Virus record (IMG/VR): IMGVR_UViG_3300036822_000078
Span: 1-30,247 of that record
DNA: 30,247 nt
Origin: a virus
Strand: one strand, 5' to 3'
Below are positions 9,291 to 30,247 of this stretch, in pieces. The position numbers and the translations under genes are program-made. The notes beneath the pieces are model-generated. The model was not told the DNA's origin. It worked only from the letters and a program-made list of their open reading frames with translations, and searched no databases. Numbering within the stretch: the first letter of the stretch is position 1; each line of letters starts with the position of its first letter.

Positions 9291-9439
9291 GGTCCTACGC
9301 CTCCGCTCTCAAGCCCACGTTTATAGCCGCGCGTGAATCCGTCGATATCGCCGTTGGCGCGTCCGATCAGGTAAGCGAGCCGGATCAATCCGGCGCTAAC
9401 GCCGATGAGGACACTGCCGAAGGCAATGCACCAGTTCAC
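9287..9439 (-). CDS. Membrane miniprotein (50 aa)
   Basis: A very short gene defined by 4-base GTGA overlaps on both sides: its GTG start (9439-9437) overlaps the stop of the primase/helicase and its TGA (9289-9287) overlaps the start of the methyltransferase. The protein begins MNWCIAFGSVLIGVSAGLIR, a single hydrophobic helix, and ends in a Gly/Arg-rich tail. This double coupling is strong evidence that it is translated. Function unknown; an inner-membrane location is predicted. Confidence 0.65.
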   Translation of the reverse strand: MNWCIAFGSVLIGVSAGLIRLAYLIGRANGDIDGFTRGYKRGLESGGVGP

Positions 9440-12033
9440 CACGTCACCTCGCCGTCGTCGCGCCGGTAGGTCTCATCGCGCTTGCGCCCCTTCCACGGCT
9501 CCAATGGATCCCCATCCTTGTAATCGTTCGGCCGATCGTCGTTCGGCTCGAGAGGCCACTGCGAGTGCAATGTGACGCCTAAATAGACTCCGTAGAGACG
9601 TTGGAGTCCAGCGATTTTCCACTTGAAAAGATACTCGCCGCCGGTCTCCGTCCGCCCCAGGATCCCGGCGTTGAAAAATTCGTTCATCACCGCCGTCGGC
9701 TGCAGGCCGCGAATCCCCATGTCCTTGGTCAAGCCCTGCACGCGTCCGTACATGTTCTCTTCACGGAAAGGCATCGAGATGTCGCGCTCGCTGTAAATCG
9801 TGCCGCTCTCTAAAATCAGCTTCGCCACCAGTTGCGCGTTGGTCAGGTGCGAGCGCGCCACGTCCTCGTCGCGCATGGCCGATTGGGTCACGTCTTCGAC
9901 CTCGCGGATCTTCTCGGGCGCGCAGTCGATCAGCATGCTGACATAGGCCTGGCGAACGGCGTCACGCTCCAGGAAAGTGGAAAAGCTCTCGTAGAACGGC
10001 GCGACCTCGTTCTTCATGCGCTTCTGGAAGTCGCTGGGCAGAAGGCCTTCGCTCGCCGACGTGATGCTGGTGACCTGGAACAGCCCGCGGTCGTCGCGGC
10101 CTCTCGAAATGCCGGGATTCAGTTCGTTCGAGGTGAACGCCAGCCGCGCGAAGATCGTATAGGTCGCCGTGTCGCGCCCCTTGATCTCGCCCGAAACGCG
10201 CGTGCCGCGAATCAGCGTCTTGAGAATCTCGCCGTTGTCGTAATTGGAGATGAACTCGTCGTGGCTGACCCAGAGCTTGCCGATGTAGCCGGCGATATAG
10301 AATTGCCCGTTGAGGGCGCGCACCGACGCCGTGTCGGCGTAGCGGCCGAAGACGGCTTGCGCGAAGGTCGTGCATAGAAACGTCTTGCCGGTGCCCTGAT
10401 CGCCGGTGCAAACGAGCGCCACCTGTTGCTTCTTGCCGGGATGCTTGAGCGTCCAGCCCATATGCGCCTTGATCCAGGCGATGCGCGCCGGCTTGCGATT
10501 GGTGACCAGGCTCAGCATGTAGTCGAGCTTCTCGGCGCACTCGGCTTTGAGTGCTTGATCGATGGTCTTGGCTGGACGGACATAGAGGCCGCGCCAATCG
10601 TTGAAGATCAGGCGCGAATGATCGGGCGCATAGTCGTTATCGGGAATCGACGCGCCCTCGCGGGTCACGCGAATGATCGCGCCTGGATCGTGGTCCGGAT
10701 GCGTCTCGACGTCGGTCACGTCCTGGCGCAGCTTCGACTTGGCGAAGATCGGGAACGCCTCGACCGGCTTCTTCTTGGTCATGATCTGCTGCGGCGCATG
10801 CCGAAGCGTCAGCTTGTCGCTCGGCATGATGAAGTTCGCCTGGCCCTCCTTGAAGGCCTGGCGGTCAATGAATTCGCTGCGGTTCTCGTGATACAGATAT
10901 CGCTCCGCGAATTCCTCGAGCAGGATTGAGTCGGCGCCGACGTTGAGAACGGCGCGGAACGCCCTCGACGCTTCCTCGCCAAAGATCCGCGCCACGCTGG
11001 CCCAGCCGGTGACGTCGAGCCGCGTCGGATCGGCCTCGAGTCGTTTGCGGGCGAACTGAAACGTCTCCAGACAGAAGCTCGTGGTCGAGGCGATCTCCGC
11101 CGGCGCGCAGCGATTCTGGCAGATCAGGCCAAGCAGCGCTTCGGCATGGTTGGGCTCGGCGACGATGGCGCGCGAGGCTTTCGAGAAAACGCTGTTGGCG
11201 TTGATCGCTTGCCCGTCGCGCACCACGCGGGCGAGCCACTCGGCAAAGGCGCGCGGCGCCATCTGGCCTTGCCAGAGCGGCGCCGGGATGATGGCGAGGA
11301 TCGAGGCGAGCGCGGCGGCGCGCACCAATTGGAAGAATTCAAGCGTCTGGATGCTGGTCCGTTGCGGCTTGCCAAGCTCTGCGCCGGTCTCTGAGCGCCA
11401 TTCGAGCGGATCGTAGGTCTTTCCATCCGGGCCCCACAAAAGCGAGCCAGGGAGTAGGCTTGTGACTTGGTGAGCCTTCGTGCCGCGTTTGATCGGCGGC
11501 GCGTACCGGACGACGATGCCGCGCCGCTCGTCGCCCAGAGTGAAGGCCTTCGGCCGGAAGCTCGCATATTCGTCGTCGAGCCGCTTGGCCTCGTCGTCGC
11601 GCAGCTTGAACAGGACCGAAGTGGCGAACGGGCGCGACCGCCGGCCGATGGCGAAGCGCGGCGAGATAGCGAGTCTGGCGCAGGCCTGGAAGAAACATTC
11701 GTTCAAGGTCTGATCGGGCCCGAAGAAGGTGACTTCGATCACGCCTTGCTGAAGGAAGATCGCAGCGTTGAGGCCTTGCTGGCGCGGGTCCAGGCGCCAG
11801 TCGGAGAGCTCGGGATCGGTGACGTGAAGCTCTTCGCCCTCGTCGTCATTGGCGGGCTTGTCGCCGCGTGGCAGGCAGTAGGTGACGGCCGAGCCGAGTT
11901 GGCGCCATGCGGTGGTGGTGTAGAGCCGCTGTTCCATGATCGGCGGCTTGTGCTCGTCTGGGATGTCGAGAAAGAACGGCTTGTCCGCTACGGGTTGAAG
12001 ATGCGGCGGCGGCGGATTAGAACCACGTGGCAA
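9436..12033 (-). CDS. Primase/helicase-type replication protein (865 aa)
   Basis: The largest protein of the left arm. A P-loop ATPase domain lies around residues 520-680: Walker A GDQGTGKT near 543, an acidic Walker B-like SHDEF near 590, LKTLIRG shortly after, and a sensor FTSNELN near 633. This order is that of the superfamily 3-like helicase domain found in phage and plasmid primase/helicases (DUF5906 type). The N-terminal 250 residues contain VIEVTFFG and an IGRRSRPFATSVLFKL segment that may be a degenerate archaeo-eukaryotic primase domain; this is uncertain. Start is TTG 12033 with an AGGA SD seven bases upstream; no ATG or GTG is in frame in the gap. Probably the phage replication initiator helicase. 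Confidence 0.8.
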   Translation of the reverse strand: MPRGSNPPPPHLQPVADKPFFLDIPDEHKPPIMEQRLYTTTAWRQLGSAVTYCLPRGDKPANDDEGEELHVTDPELSDWRLDPRQQGLNAAIFLQQGVIEVTFFGPDQTLNECFFQACARLAISPRFAIGRRSRPFATSVLFKLRDDEAKRLDDEYASFRPKAFTLGDERRGIVVRYAPPIKRGTKAHQVTSLLPGSLLWGPDGKTYDPLEWRSETGAELGKPQRTSIQTLEFFQLVRAAALASILAIIPAPLWQGQMAPRAFAEWLARVVRDGQAINANSVFSKASRAIVAEPNHAEALLGLICQNRCAPAEIASTTSFCLETFQFARKRLEADPTRLDVTGWASVARIFGEEASRAFRAVLNVGADSILLEEFAERYLYHENRSEFIDRQAFKEGQANFIMPSDKLTLRHAPQQIMTKKKPVEAFPIFAKSKLRQDVTDVETHPDHDPGAIIRVTREGASIPDNDYAPDHSRLIFNDWRGLYVRPAKTIDQALKAECAEKLDYMLSLVTNRKPARIAWIKAHMGWTLKHPGKKQQVALVCTGDQGTGKTFLCTTFAQAVFGRYADTASVRALNGQFYIAGYIGKLWVSHDEFISNYDNGEILKTLIRGTRVSGEIKGRDTATYTIFARLAFTSNELNPGISRGRDDRGLFQVTSITSASEGLLPSDFQKRMKNEVAPFYESFSTFLERDAVRQAYVSMLIDCAPEKIREVEDVTQSAMRDEDVARSHLTNAQLVAKLILESGTIYSERDISMPFREENMYGRVQGLTKDMGIRGLQPTAVMNEFFNAGILGRTETGGEYLFKWKIAGLQRLYGVYLGVTLHSQWPLEPNDDRPNDYKDGDPLEPWKGRKRDETYRRDDGEVTW

Positions 12034-12370: not shown

Positions 12371-12551
12371 GCTTGGTCTCCGTCTCAGCCAGGCCCTCGC
12401 AAAACGCGTCCCACTTGTCGGCGAGATGCTCGTCAATCGGACGAAGCGCCTCCGCTCGGATCATTGCCTGTTGTTTGAGATACGTCAGGAGTTGCTCGGG
12501 CTCGTCGAGGGCGAGGGCTACGGCGATTGATCCGGCTATGTCGGCGGTCAT
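12339..12551 (-). CDS. Hypothetical acidic helical protein (70 aa)
   Basis: Not recognised. Almost entirely helical (SIAVALALDEPEQLLTYLKQ then EHLADKWDAFCEGLAETE). Start ATG 12551 has AAGGA 10 bases upstream, inside the preceding gene. Its codon pattern is more gene-like than the overlapping tail of the upstream HTH protein. Confidence 0.6.
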   Translation of the reverse strand: MTADIAGSIAVALALDEPEQLLTYLKQQAMIRAEALRPIDEHLADKWDAFCEGLAETETKLGDVKRRPAA

Positions 12552-12882
12552 TGAGAGGTTTTCCTTGCAAGAGTTTGCGCATGCCTTCGTTGATCGATTC
12601 GGTTTGCGCCGAGGTCACGATGTCGGCCCAGACCTTCTCCTCGCCCATTTGCTCGAAGGCGTTCTTGACGTTGTCATGCGCCGCCGTATGGGTCCAGTTG
12701 GTGATGTAATATATGGCGTTGGTGCGCACGCCGAAGGTGCGGGCGATCAATTTCGCCGGCACGCCCTTGAGATGGAACGCGTAGATCGCGATGCGCTCGG
12801 CGGTCGACAGTTTGCGCTCGCGCGAGGTGTTCTTCAGACCGGCGAGCGCGTCTTCATCGAGTAGGGTCATGAGCACAGACAT
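12433..12882 (-). CDS. Helix-turn-helix protein (149 aa)
   Basis: Residues about 22-55 form a clear HTH: STAERIAIYAFHLKGVPAKLIARTFGV followed by a recognition helix RTNAIYYITN, as in resolvase/sigma-like HTH units. The start ATG 12882 has GGAG only two bases upstream; the GTG at residue 3 is better spaced and is an alternative. The last 40 residues are Arg/Pro/Ser-rich and overlap the next gene by 119 bases out of frame, so the functional protein probably ends near residue 105 and the tail may be unselected. DNA-binding regulator by fold; target unknown. Confidence 0.65.
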   Translation of the reverse strand: MSVLMTLLDEDALAGLKNTSRERKLSTAERIAIYAFHLKGVPAKLIARTFGVRTNAIYYITNWTHTAAHDNVKNAFEQMGEEKVWADIVTSAQTESINEGMRKLLQGKPLNDRRHSRINRRSPRPRRARATPDVSQTTGNDPSGGASSD

Positions 12883-12887
12883 AGCTC

Positions 12888-13214
12888 CTACGAAGTCGAT
12901 TGCAAGTCGTCTGCATCGACACGCTCTTGTGCGCAACGATCGCATAGCCATTGGTCGTGACCATGCCCGGTCAGATCCTCGATGAGCACGGTTCCGATTC
13001 TCTCTTCGCAATCGGCGCACACGGGTTTCTCGGATTCTGCCTCGCGCTCTTCGGCACACGATTCGCACAAGTACTCGACAACGCCCTTCCATATGCCGCC
13101 GAACTCGTATGAGCCGGTGGCGCGGCGCGCTTCGCAATGCTCGCAGATGACGCGACCGCGGATGCGATCAGCTTCGTCTTCGGGAGTCTCGAGCTTCCAA
13201 TCGTCGTAGGTCAT
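12888..13214 (-). CDS. Double zinc-ribbon-like protein (108 aa)
   Basis: Contains four Cys pairs: CEHC (about 24-27), CESC (50-53), CADC (66-69) and CDRC (91-94), making two four-cysteine zinc sites. The spacers are strand-rich with an acidic linker EEREAESEK between the two units. The ATG at 13214 overlaps the upstream stop as ATGA; the longer open frame is a shadow. Zinc ribbons in phage proteins often bind nucleic acid or RNA polymerase, but no specific function can be assigned. Confidence 0.7.
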   Translation of the reverse strand: MTYDDWKLETPEDEADRIRGRVICEHCEARRATGSYEFGGIWKGVVEYLCESCAEEREAESEKPVCADCEERIGTVLIEDLTGHGHDQWLCDRCAQERVDADDLQSTS

Positions 13215-14920: not shown

Positions 14921-15529
14921 TTAGTCGAGGGGTTGGAAGAGAGCGAGGCAGAAGCGGTAGCAATCGAGCGGATTAGCGAACGGATTGTCGTCGTCGTCGC
15001 CGCGCGGCTTGAGCTCCGCCCATTTCTCGGGCGGCCATTCCGGCTGGTCGAAATAGGGCTTCAGATTGCGCCACAGGAAGCCGTGCGGGCGGTGATCCTC
15101 GATGCGGAAGACAGCGGGAGTTCCATGCACGGTCTTCAGCCATCGATAGATCCGGCAATAGCGCATGTGGTTCGCTGGAATCCCGCCCATCGCCAGGCGC
15201 TTGGCGTCATGAGCGCGTTTCTTGGCGTCAATCGCCTCGATCAGATCGGCGCGCAATCGAGGGGTCAGATACCTGTGGACAAAGGCTTCATGCCCGAGCG
15301 CGTCATACTCGCGCGCCACTTTGGGATAGCGGACCTGCCCGCCACGCCTTTGCCCTGCGGCTTTTAAGTAAGTGGCGACCGAAGAACCGATTTCCGCAAC
15401 CTTTGCCACGATCTGCAGAGGGACGTCGGACCTAATTGCAGCGTAGTACCCACACTGTTCCTCAAACGTCATTCGACCGTAGTTTGGCATATTCAGACGA
15501 GCTAGAGCCTCGGCGAGGGGATTTTCCAA
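14921..15529 (-). CDS. Hypothetical protein (202 aa) behind an attenuator-like terminator
   Basis: Not recognised. The N-terminal 60 residues are helical and could hold an HTH (VPLQIVAKVAEIGSSVATYLKAAG), the middle is basic (EAIDAKKRAHDAKRLAMG), and the C-terminus is Trp/Pro-rich with an acidic DDDDNPF patch. Start is TTG 15529 with a strong GGAGG SD seven bases upstream; that SD directly follows the T-run of a minus-strand terminator (15571-15542), so expression may depend on readthrough. Confidence 0.65.
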   Translation of the reverse strand: MENPLAEALARLNMPNYGRMTFEEQCGYYAAIRSDVPLQIVAKVAEIGSSVATYLKAAGQRRGGQVRYPKVAREYDALGHEAFVHRYLTPRLRADLIEAIDAKKRAHDAKRLAMGGIPANHMRYCRIYRWLKTVHGTPAVFRIEDHRPHGFLWRNLKPYFDQPEWPPEKWAELKPRGDDDDNPFANPLDCYRFCLALFQPLD

Positions 15530-15541
15530 AGGAATGCCTCC

Positions 15542-15571
15542 AAAAAAGAGAGAAGAGCATAATTGTGCTCT
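15542..15571 (-). terminator. Rho-independent terminator or attenuator
   Basis: On the minus strand AGAGCA/TGCTCT pair around a 6-base loop (15571-15554), followed by a pyrimidine tract ending in six T (15547-15542). The GGAGG SD of the next gene begins right after the T-run, which is the layout of an attenuator. The stem is only six pairs, so efficiency may be modest. Confidence 0.55.
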
Positions 15572-15573
15572 AT

Positions 15574-15726
15574 GTTACGCAGTGAGTCAACATCCCTGGA
15601 TGCTACGGCTTATACGCGAGAAGAAATGAAAAGGGAAACGTACTCCAAATAAGGCAAGGAGTATGTACCAAAGAATCTTCTCGCGTGTAAGCCGTAAGGG
15701 GTGGTTGTGTAAGCTCACTGCGTGAC
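15574..15726 (+). ncRNA. Candidate rod-shaped structured RNA
   Basis: Four nested helices form one rod: 15574-15587 with 15713-15726 (14 pairs), 15588-15597 with 15697-15707 (10 pairs, one bulge), 15604-15624 with 15676-15696 (21 pairs), and 15638-15646 with 15658-15666 (9 pairs, 11-base loop). About 54 pairs in 153 bases. All five non-Watson-Crick pairs (for example 15613/15687 and 15640/15664) are G-U if the plus strand is transcribed but A-C on the minus strand, so a plus-strand RNA is favoured. A CATAAT -10-like box at 15558-15563 would start it just at the first helix; no good -35 is seen. Further hairpins follow (15730-15743, about 15747-15780, 15848-15861), so the transcript may extend to about 15865. 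No family recognised. The rest of 15727-15907 holds no gene. Confidence 0.5.
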
Positions 15727-15907
15727 TTTGTCAGCTATCTGACTAGTCGGAGCGGAGCAAAGCTCGAAAACGCCCGACAGGCAGTCAAGACCCGCAAGGC
15801 GAAACCGTCAAGCCCGCCTCGAACGGCAAACCATCAACGTGAACCGGCCAGCGCCGCTGGTTTGGCGCGCTGTGGCGAAGTTTTTCGCGTTGTCATAGTG
15901 TGGTTCC

Positions 15908-16009
15908 TCAGATGATTCCGGCCACGCCGGCGAGGAGGACGAGGCAGAGGGCGAGCGGCCAGAACAAGAGGCCGACGCAAAAGCAAGCTTGATTCGCGGT
16001 CATAGTCAT
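15908..16009 (-). CDS. Membrane miniprotein (33 aa)
   Basis: ATG at 16009 has an AAGGA SD about six bases upstream. The protein is one hydrophobic helix, running CFCVGLLFWPLALCLVLLAG after a short polar start, and ends in AGII. It is a predicted single-pass inner-membrane peptide. The SD, the perfect length of the hydrophobic stretch and the minus-strand orientation support it; no relatives are known to me. A 20-codon ORF (15896-15834) follows it. Confidence 0.45.
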   Translation of the reverse strand: MTMTANQACFCVGLLFWPLALCLVLLAGVAGII

Positions 16010-16063
16010 TTCTATCCTTCCGAAGTTTGGTAAATGTGGGACCAACCGTGGGACTGCCACGCC

Positions 16064-16098
16064 AATGCATTGAAAATGTTGTTGCATTTCAATGCATT
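16064..16098. repeat. AT-rich inverted repeat
   Basis: Arms AATGCATTGAAAATG and CATTTCAATGCATT pair over 14 bases with one bulged A and a TTGTTG loop. No T-run follows on either strand. It could be a protein-binding site, an RNA-stabilising hairpin, or part of a replication origin. Two GTGGGAC copies lie just to its left (16036-16053). Confidence 0.6.
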
Positions 16099-16107
16099 AG
16101 CTTGGTA

Positions 16108-16134
16108 GTTCGGTGCCTACGCGAGGCACCGAAC
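16108..16134 (-). other. Strong hairpin over the end of the gp88-like gene
   Basis: Arms GTTCGGTGCCT (16108-16118) and AGGCACCGAAC (16124-16134) are perfectly complementary with a 5-base loop. The stop codon of the gp88-like gene (16119-16117) is inside the structure. No T-run follows, so it is more likely a 3'-end stabilising or pausing hairpin than a classic terminator. Confidence 0.55.
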
Positions 16135-16881
16135 CACAAAGCCGCTTGTATCGGCTTTAGCCTTGCGACCCTTGGGCGATAGGCCGATAATCACGCCGCC
16201 TCTGGGGTCCAGGTGACGCAAGTCATGTTCGTCGCCATTCACTACTGTATAGCCCAAGTATTCACTTGGCATAGCGCCAGCAAAGACTACTGCGACATTG
16301 CCGCCGGCTTTCAGAACCTCGAGGCACTCGGATTCGTTGGTCTCCGAACGGCTAAAGGTCAGGTGATAGTTCTTCGGCAGTTGACCATTGCAGAACCTAA
16401 GCATACGCTTGAAGTTCTTAGTATAGTCAACAAACTGTACAGTAGGAAACAAGTCTATGATGCTGAACTGTTGATGTTCGCCTTGGATCTTGACTGATTC
16501 CCAACTGATATCCGTCGCGCCATTCGGGCGGACGCACAACGCCTTGCCCAAACGCTTCGCTAGACGAAGGCATGAGAGAATGCCAAGCCGCATGCATTGC
16601 AGGAACGCTTGCCGGTCGCGCATGAACATGCGAGACTTGCGCTCACGCGACTTGCGCGTTGCATTGCGTCCCGTCTCGAGCTCGGCATTGCTCAACATGC
16701 CAGCCTGGCCGGAATACCAGCCAAGGCATAGCGCTAAGCATCCAGGTGACGCATGTGGGCAGAGGTTGCCAACGCCAGCGGTGGCGGCAGGCGCCATGTA
16801 GTTGATGGCGTTAACATAACCGAACGCGTCGGCCTTAATGGCCTTCGGGCTATCGACTGAGAAGAAACGATCGGATTGCAT
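16117..16881 (-). CDS. gp88-like phage protein with conserved cysteines
   Basis: 254 residues from ATG 16881, which has GAGG nine bases upstream; the longer frame is a shadow of the leader gene. The motif NLCPHASPGCLALCLGWYSG (about residues 39-58) with its CPxAxxxC-type cysteine cluster, followed by a basic RNATRKSRERKSRMF segment and YTKN and FSRSE strands, resembles the phage gene product 88 family, widespread in actinophages and other phages. The function of that family is unknown to me; the cysteines suggest a bound metal. Base composition is more AT-rich than in adjacent genes, hinting at separate ancestry. It is the second gene behind the central minus-strand promoter. Confidence 0.6.
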   Translation of the reverse strand: MQSDRFFSVDSPKAIKADAFGYVNAINYMAPAATAGVGNLCPHASPGCLALCLGWYSGQAGMLSNAELETGRNATRKSRERKSRMFMRDRQAFLQCMRLGILSCLRLAKRLGKALCVRPNGATDISWESVKIQGEHQQFSIIDLFPTVQFVDYTKNFKRMLRFCNGQLPKNYHLTFSRSETNESECLEVLKAGGNVAVVFAGAMPSEYLGYTVVNGDEHDLRHLDPRGGVIIGLSPKGRKAKADTSGFVVRCLA

Positions 16882-16891
16882 AGCGGCGCCC

Positions 16892-17086
16892 TCACAAGTT
16901 TGCAGGACAGCCGCGCATCGGGTCGCGTTTCTCGCGATCGATAGCGCGCACAACCGCGGCCCAGAAGCCGCTTGTGTCGCGTGTTGCGCAGTGGCTTGCC
17001 CAAGCAAGAGCGTTGACCAGGCCGCGATCCTCGATCAGCGCAAGCGCGTGATCGATCGCGGCGTTTTGTTCGCGTTCGGATAGCAT
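16892..17086 (-). CDS. Hypothetical leader-proximal protein (64 aa)
   Basis: First gene of the left arm. ATG 17086 has a GGAG SD nine bases upstream; a TTG at 17110 is less likely. Helical protein (MLSEREQNAAIDHALALIED, then SGFWAAVVRAIDREKR). Not recognised. First genes of early phage operons often act on the host, but that is only a position argument. Confidence 0.6.
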   Translation of the reverse strand: MLSEREQNAAIDHALALIEDRGLVNALAWASHCATRDTSGFWAAVVRAIDREKRDPMRGCPANL

Positions 17087-17375: not shown

Positions 17376-17855
17376 ATGCTTCCGGCCTATCCCTGGTCCA
17401 CGCGTCCTGACGATCATCCTCTGACGGCGGACGAGGTCTGCGCTGCTCTTGTCGTCTCCGAGGGCGACATCCGCGCGGCTGCGGAGCGTCTCAAGGTTGG
17501 CTCCCTGATCCTGCGCAAGTTCGTCGAACGGTCCAGCCGGGCCCGCGCTGTGATTCGGGAAATGGCCCTTCTCCTGGCGGACGAGGCGCAACAGACCCTC
17601 AGAGAAGCCCTTCGCGACCCCGACGCCCGCCGCAAGGACTGGGCGATTCGGTTTATCCTGAACTCAAAGAACGCCCGCGGCCTAGGCTGGTCCAGCACGG
17701 ACGACGCGGCGGAGGCTCTCGGCCGTCCCTCGATCACCCTCACCCTGCCCGCCGTCTCCTGGGCCGACGGCACCCCTCTCACTGCTCCCGCGCAACCCGA
17801 GCGCGCCCTGATCGACGTCACCCCGCCCGCTGCGAAGCCCAATGACGGAGACTGA
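17376..17855 (+). CDS. terS: Terminase small subunit
   Basis: 159 residues. It recognises phage DNA for packaging and hands it to the large subunit. An N-terminal HTH-like region (TADEVCAALVVSEGDIRAAA then ERLKVGSLILRKFVER, residues 17-52) is followed by an oligomerisation helix (MALLLADEAQQTLREAL) and a disordered Pro-rich tail, as in many phage TerS proteins. The start ATG 17376 is the first in frame after a TAG at 17364; SD is weak. It overlaps terL by 14 bases. The name relies on fold pattern plus its position before terL. Confidence 0.75.
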   Translation: MLPAYPWSTRPDDHPLTADEVCAALVVSEGDIRAAAERLKVGSLILRKFVERSSRARAVIREMALLLADEAQQTLREALRDPDARRKDWAIRFILNSKNARGLGWSSTDDAAEALGRPSITLTLPAVSWADGTPLTAPAQPERALIDVTPPAAKPNDGD

Positions 17856-28637: not shown

Positions 28638-30247
28638 TGGCGAACGATTCATGGATCGTCGATGGCGTGCCGCTCGACGACGAGTGGGATCCTTCGTGCG
28701 GCTGCGCGCCGTCTGACAGCCGCACCTCGACCGTCGATAATCTCCTCATCACCGGAGCGCCTGGCGGAATCACCTCGAGTGTCAACGATCTGTCGAAATG
28801 GGCGGTGATCCTCAACGACGGCACGCCGGAAGTCGATTTTAAGATCGAGCGCTTCGACGATAGCGGGCAATTGATCGATGCGCCGATCACCATCGAGCGC
28901 GCCACTGGCATTGTGACATTTCACGATCCGGTGATGCTGTCCGAGGATCCGCAGCAGCCGCTCGAGGCGGCGACCAAGGAGTACGTCGACTCTCATCCCG
29001 GCACGCTGGGGCCTGAAGGGCCGGTGGGCCCTGTTGGGCCGACAGGTCCGACAGGTCCAACAGGACCGCAAGGAGTGACGGGTTCGCCGGGTCCGGTGGG
29101 CCCGGTGGGTCCGCAAGGCCCCGCGGGTCAAACCGCGATCATCGTCGGTCAGTTCGGCGCGTCGAAGACGCCGGCCAATCTACCGACGAATGGCGTCATC
29201 CCGGCGAACTGGGACGCCGCCGGCGTGCCGCCGGCTCAGTTGACCATGGGGCTGGGCCAGGCGCTTACCTACACCGTCAACGAGCATATTTGGGTCTTCG
29301 TCGGAACTGGCATGAATGCGGCCGGCTGGATCGATATGGGGGCTGCGCAGGGGCCGCAGGGACCGCAGGGGCCCGCTGGCCCGACAGGGCCGGCTGGGTC
29401 GCAGGGCGTGCCGGGATCGACGGGAGCGACCGGAGCGACCGGGTCGCCTGGCCCGACTGGGCCGCAAGGGATTACCGGAGCGCCGGGTCCGAGCGCGGTT
29501 AGCGCGGACGCGAACAATTCCGCGACGCTGGGCAGCGACAGCCTGATCTTCGTGCCGAAGACGGCCGGCGGCTCGAGCGTCACCGTCTCCGATACGGCGC
29601 CCGCTTCGCCCAAGGCGGGCGACCTGTGGTGGGACAGCGTCGGCGGCCAATTGTACGTCTGGTATCAGGACGCCAATTCGTCGCAGTGGGTGGTCGCCAA
29701 CAATGGCGGTCCGCCGCCTTCGCCGCCTATACTGAATTACCGCAACCGGATCATCAACGGCGACATGTCGGTCGATGCTCGCCACGGGGGCGCGAGTGGA
29801 ACAGCTACTGGTTATACTATTGATAGATGGGGGTTTAATACAGGTGTAGCGAATAAAGGTAATTGGGGACAAAATTCAGCCAGTCCAATAGCGGGCGGGT
29901 ATAGTTTAGGCTGGACTACAACTACTGCATATACGCCCGTACTAACTGATAGTTTTGTGTTTTATCAATTCGTTGAGGGCTATAATTTTAATGACGCTCA
30001 TTGGGGGACGGCGAATGCCCAGCCGGTGACGCTGGAATTTTGGGCTTATTCTTCGCTGACCGGAATGTTCAGCGGCACGCTTTTTAATAATAGCTATAAT
30101 CGAAATTATATTTTTACCTATACAATTTCAGTCGCGAACACTTGGACTAAATTTCGGCTTAATATCCCCGGCGATACTACAGGAACATGGTCTGTAGCTA
30201 ACAATACGTGGGCGGTACAATTAGCGTTTTGTTTGGGAGTTGGCACG
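28637..30247 (+). CDS. Tail fibre with collagen-like repeats, C-terminus cut by window edge
   Basis: 537 codons are present and the frame is open at the end. ATG 28637 shares a base with the previous TGA. Residues 1-120 form an N-terminal attachment-type part with [20 protein letters not shown] and a KEYVDS motif seen in phage fibres. Two Gly-x-y collagen-like blocks (125-164 and 239-285) flank a folded insertion with GWIDMG. From about 365 a [18 protein letters not shown] motif opens a C-terminal jelly-roll-like binding domain, rich in Trp, Tyr, Asn and Thr. It should bind the host surface. GC drops sharply from about 29790. Confidence 0.88.
29009..29128 (+). repeat. Collagen-like Gly-x-y repeat block 1
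   Basis: Forty consecutive codons encode Gly-x-y triplets such as GPT and GPV, with near-identical DNA units (ggtccgaca, ggtccaaca). In phage fibres such blocks form trimeric rods and are prone to length change. Confidence 0.85.
29351..29491 (+). repeat. Collagen-like Gly-x-y repeat block 2
   Basis: Forty-seven codons of Gly-x-y, richer in Gln, Ser and Ala (GPQ, GAT) than block 1, so the two blocks are not a recent exact copy. It links the inner folded insertion to the binding domain. Confidence 0.85.

Follow-up and report, generated by a model that had tools for sequence, protein, structure and literature searches.

A long hairpin with covarying arms lies upstream of a probable helix-turn-helix gene in a group of related phages

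The window analysed here covers positions 1 to 30,247 of an IMG/VR virus record, IMGVR_UViG_3300036822_000078. Its genes to the left of about 17.1 kb are read leftward, and the terminase gene at 17842 and later genes are read rightward. Among the leftward genes are a primase/helicase gene (9436-12033), a gene for which we use the label MENPL (14921-15529, minus strand) and a gp88-type gene (16117-17007). Between the gp88-type and MENPL genes, 44 nt from the MENPL start codon, lies a rod-shaped hairpin, hereafter the rod. The features of this region are as follows.

14921-15529, minus strand: MENPL gene, starting with TTG and encoding 202 aa; all rod-bearing relatives have a homologue downstream of the rod
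15537-15541, minus strand: GGAGG, ribosome-binding site of the MENPL gene, read from the sequence
15554-15571, no strand assigned: 18-bp palindrome AGAGCATAATTGTGCTCT over the -10 element of P2, followed by a T-rich run
15562-15590, minus strand: P2, leftward promoter-like TTGACT-17-CACAAT, at the rod edge nearest the gene
15574-15726, no strand assigned: the rod-shaped hairpin, from folding and homologous rods
About 15574-15597 with 15701-15726: outer helices of the rod
15604-15624 with 15676-15696: inner 21-bp helix of the rod
15611-15624, no strand assigned: CGCGAG-type arm of the conserved core, 5′ on the plus strand, pairing with 15676-15689; from the core alignment and pair counts
About 15638-15666: apical 9-bp hairpin of the rod
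15676-15689, no strand assigned: CTCGCG-type arm of the conserved core, 3′ on the plus strand; from the core alignment and pair counts
15755-15765, minus strand: small hairpin GAGC/GCTC between P1 and the rod; its equivalents in relatives pair with other letters (GAC/GTC in L004)
15768-15774, minus strand: GGCGTTT, close to where P1 is predicted to start; six of its bases do not vary in the core alignment
15783-15811, minus strand: P1, promoter-like TTGACG-17-TTGACT reading leftward into the rod; all 7 core genomes retain TTGAC at a similar position

RNAfold folds the plus strand of 15574-15726 into a single rod of -82.1 kcal/mol, against a mean of -37.1 for 200 dinucleotide shuffles, none of which was as stable (z -11.0). 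The helices, of 14, 10 (with a bulge), 21 and 9 pairs, are the four nested ones described by an earlier, sequence-only reading of this DNA, and RNAfold adds a 2-bp helix in the internal loop for a total of 56 pairs; the five G-U pairs of that reading are also visible by eye in the sequence. When the whole window was scanned as 804 segments of 153 nt, both strands included, nothing folded more strongly than the rod, and its 21-bp arms head the list of inverted repeats, confirming it as a real hairpin. Because the minus strand (-64.5, z -9.3) and the stretch treated as DNA (z -10.1) also fold stably, folding does not by itself point to one strand or to RNA over DNA. On the plus strand, second place in the window goes to 28801-28953 (z -9.1), in the structural-gene region.

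We gathered related phages by searches with gp88 and terminase, and inspected the DNA upstream of the MENPL homologue in those where tblastn or an HMM found one. Rods of 124-234 nt were present upstream of the homologous gene in ten uncultured phages and in one isolate, Ochrobactrum phage vB_OspP_OH, in addition to the window. Those of the window and the uncultured phages fall into a core clade of seven genomes (the window, L004, L016, L017, L097, L099/L100 and L105) and a more distant group (L019, L021/L022, L023 and L024). Among the 13 defined rods, for which z-scores were computed, all reached -4.9 or lower on both strands, with the sole exception of the leftward strand of L019 (-3.8). Usually there is one rod per genome, in the early region; vB_OspP_OH (L111, NC_070933.1) has two, at 748-981 and 1674-1824, both overlapped by annotated hypothetical genes (gp03 and gp06) that are probably not real genes. 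Its MENPL homologue is gp08, at 2034 (hhalign probability 98.3), which was the only strong Foldseek match in the viral library. The gap from rod to start codon is 2-44 nt in 7 of 7 core genomes, and the vB_OspP_OH rod ends 209 nt upstream of the gene. Every close MENPL homologue examined comes with a rod; this tie between the rod and the gene at 14921-15529 (minus strand) is the main relation of the locus, and it had escaped the sequence-only reading.

Beyond this set, annotated phages had no DNA similarity, and no convincing rod was found upstream of the more distant HTH proteins of L121-L126. In other phages with a gp88 homologue (L161-L164), an arm-alignment scan revealed no outstanding long hairpin, although the same scan places the weaker rods of the family (L016, L023, L024 and L105) below other repeats. 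A scan of IMG/VR for the core motif returned the known members and one weak hairpin in another 50-kb phage, and essentially nothing else. This hairpin (L144:4582-4652, z -4.8) has the same GCGCGAGAG/CTCTCGCGC core and lies ahead of the start codon for a small, unrelated protein whose N-terminus is hydrophobic; we attribute it to chance or convergence.

The MENPL product is a probable N-terminal helix-turn-helix (HTH) protein. Searches of Pfam, PHROGs, NCBIfam and PDB placed it in no convincing family, Foldseek against PDB gave weak LysR/LuxR-type HTH matches only, and gp08 of vB_OspP_OH matches an HTH family weakly. Another, shorter protein related to MENPL (E 1.7e-10) is encoded at 12436-13137, and L004, L016, L017, L099 and L105 have similar paralogues.

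Sequence similarity among the rods is slight and nearly lost, but their pairing is kept. In the alignable inner helix, where a GCGCGAG/CTCGCGC core recurs, 10 of 17 core pairs have changes on both sides, with 20 such cells against 7.7 in shuffles (0 of 500). Paired cells make up 84% of this core alignment, its covariation score of 0.50 exceeds the 0.23 of shuffles (0 of 500), and the signal is lost when partners are slid. The core arms were cut by hand, which tilts these figures towards structure; MAFFT misaligned the variable loops. This covariation shows that pairing is kept and strongly supports a structured element, as the sequence-only reading had supposed; RNA and DNA hairpins would look alike in such an analysis.

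The only clearly significant promoter signal at the rod is the leftward P1 of the core clade. P1-like blocks with a predicted start 22-49 nt upstream of the rod occur in 7 of 7 core genomes (p 0.003-0.027 each), with a combined Fisher value of about 1e-8 that overstates independence, since the seven blocks are homologous DNA; their -10 parts are poor. GGCGTT is kept 22-48 nt ahead of the core rods. In some genomes a leftward P2 also sits between the rod and the gene, with p values of 0.01-0.06 for the window, L019, L021 and L024, and the AGAGCATAATTGTGCTCT palindrome over it, judged by its sequence, may be an operator or a weak leftward terminator. L019, L021, L023 and L024 have no significant P1; they have terminator-like hairpins between the gp88 gene and the rod, which precede the rod in the leftward sense, and three of the four have a promoter-like site between rod and gene. 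Leftward transcription of the rod is doubtful in these four relatives, as it is in vB_OspP_OH. Two adjoining strong hairpins with AATGCATT in both arms, just past the 3′ end of the gp88-type gene (16053-16142), are probably a terminator or operator. In L005, where no MENPL gene was detected, several TGGCCATNNTGGCCA-like palindromes directly after the gp88 homologue (1214-1426) look like repressor operators.

Starting from what we observe, namely the rod, its fixed place, its covariation and the P1-like block, we tentatively propose that the rod acts in cis as a hairpin within the control region of MENPL and, in the core clade, as a leader RNA, a possibility that we favour while holding it somewhat short of probable. 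The rod would be a structure-conserved cis element controlling MENPL, one of the genes of the leftward early block. For the core clade, including the window, leftward transcription would begin at P1 and the rod would form the 5′ leader of the MENPL message, so that a near-perfect hairpin of 150-200 nt would set the expression of the MENPL regulator. It could do so by protecting the 5′ end, or by offering a site for cleavage by a double-strand ribonuclease and hence for processing of the message; MENPL may also regulate itself. Counted for this leader are the rod-to-start gap of 2-44 nt together with the TTGAC blocks in all seven core genomes, the kept GGCGTT, pairing maintained while sequence is not, and the presence of a rod beside every close homologue. 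Counted against it are wobble pairs that lean to the plus rather than the leftward strand (50:25 in all, though a neutral 9:7 for isolated mismatches), leftward-strand loops that are U-rich and G-poor, unlike those of most structured RNAs, the poor -10 parts of P1, the distant relatives without a significant P1 and the 209-nt gap in vB_OspP_OH.

Those strand leanings bear on an alternative that we consider unlikely, in which a separate plus-strand noncoding RNA, about 240-300 nt long and antisense to the MENPL operon, would have the rod as its 5′ part and could act by pairing or protein binding. The sequence-only reading had argued for a plus-strand RNA from its G-U pairs, all five of which fall on that strand, a split with a two-sided chance probability of 0.06 that alone is weak evidence. 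When all arm mismatches of the 13 rods are taken from arm-versus-arm alignments, this asymmetry stands, with 50 plus-type G-U against 25 leftward (p 0.04 after correction for loop composition), but it fades to neutrality among isolated mismatches with two matches on each side (9 plus-type, 7 leftward, 23 transversions). By genome, L019, L023 and L024 share the plus-type lean, whereas the opposite lean is seen in L004, L017, L021 and the gene-side rod of vB_OspP_OH; of the 13 rods, 9 fold better on the plus-type strand, and that of L004 folds better on the leftward one. On the plus-type strand, the unpaired bases of the core rods (A 0.44, U 0.24, G 0.22, C 0.10) have the A-rich, C-poor composition usual for RNA loops, and the flanks have no composition so extreme. 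Terminator-like hairpins of the distant group are found about 90-190 nt past the rod on the same strand. Plus-strand promoters at the rod edge, however, score no better than shuffles (Fisher 0.38 in the core, 0.19 in all), and the promoter signal that is present is leftward only. The evidence lines conflict, and no single strand explains all of them; the strand argument of the sequence-only reading is upheld only in part.

Mismatch types within the helices that look strand-neutral and random (7:9:23) would suit a DNA element, an inverted repeat acting as a cruciform or single-strand hairpin, for example as part of an origin or as a binding platform beside the gene of its own DNA-binding protein. 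The rods of the window and all uncultured relatives are AT-rich (GC 0.35-0.48, against about 0.6 for the genome), the linked gene is HTH-like, one rod per early region is the usual number, and a position upstream of MENPL, whether within or beyond a leader, holds in every genome. Against these points, the loops are strongly strand-asymmetric, in the core clade the rod is likely to be transcribed because of P1, a search for short direct repeats found none, and a literature search found no origin of such form; we give this reading rather little credence. Long inverted repeats with little sequence conservation can also be remnants of insertions, but chance or a mobile repeat is very improbable here, as the rod has the same place in 12 genomes and covarying arms, the window holds no second copy and the IMG/VR motif scan gave essentially this family only. 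A miniature inverted-repeat transposable element was rejected, with no near-identical copies at other sites in the window or in that scan.

Comparison with known systems leaves the rod without a family, as the sequence-only reading had it. At gathering thresholds Rfam has no match in the window or nine relatives, and for vB_OspP_OH nothing at E <= 1; relaxed searches gave only chance miRNA-like matches, at the gp88 terminator. The likeness to 6S RNA that had been noted, a rod with a central bubble, found no support, since no Rfam 6S match appears down to E 10 in 15400-16150, and the position of the rod is tied to one phage gene; 6S RNA was set aside as unsupported. T7-type early operons have RNase III processing hairpins of about 60 nt, with internal loops, between early genes. 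The rods likewise are internal-loop hairpins among early genes, close ahead of the next start codon, but they are 124-234 nt long, number one or two per genome and are known from sequence alone. By the measure of an RNase III site (an RNA helix of more than 20 bp on the transcribed strand, ahead of the next gene), the rods have long helices on either strand, and their transcription is a prediction. The put RNAs of phage HK022 are antitermination leaders, short, conserved in sequence and cis-acting; the analogy is one of position, that of a structured RNA acting in cis near the start of an early transcript, whereas in the rods it is pairing that is kept, with little of the sequence. The single-strand initiation hairpins of RSF1010, like comparable DNA hairpin elements, are fold-dependent inverted repeats of replication regions. 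The rod resembles them as an inverted repeat whose fold matters and differs in being much longer, in having no known nick or priming site and in belonging to a double-stranded DNA phage.

Taken together, the rod is a real and previously undescribed element, locked in position and conserved in structure, that goes with a lineage-specific, probable HTH gene. The structure described by the sequence-only reading is borne out and gains in significance. Elements of this kind escape sequence-based searches. Since vB_OspP_OH is an isolate with two copies of the rod, laboratory work could test its strand, molecule and role. It is conceivable, though we would stop short of calling it probable, that the rods of these alphaproteobacterial podovirus-like phages represent a new, structure-only class of element, in which a hairpin of 120-230 bases, constrained in fold and position while its sequence may vary freely, and a lineage-specific helix-turn-helix protein form a unit controlling early expression or replication. 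Selection seems to preserve a very long hairpin in these phages while its sequence drifts, and the hairpin is always next to one gene, probably for a DNA-binding protein.
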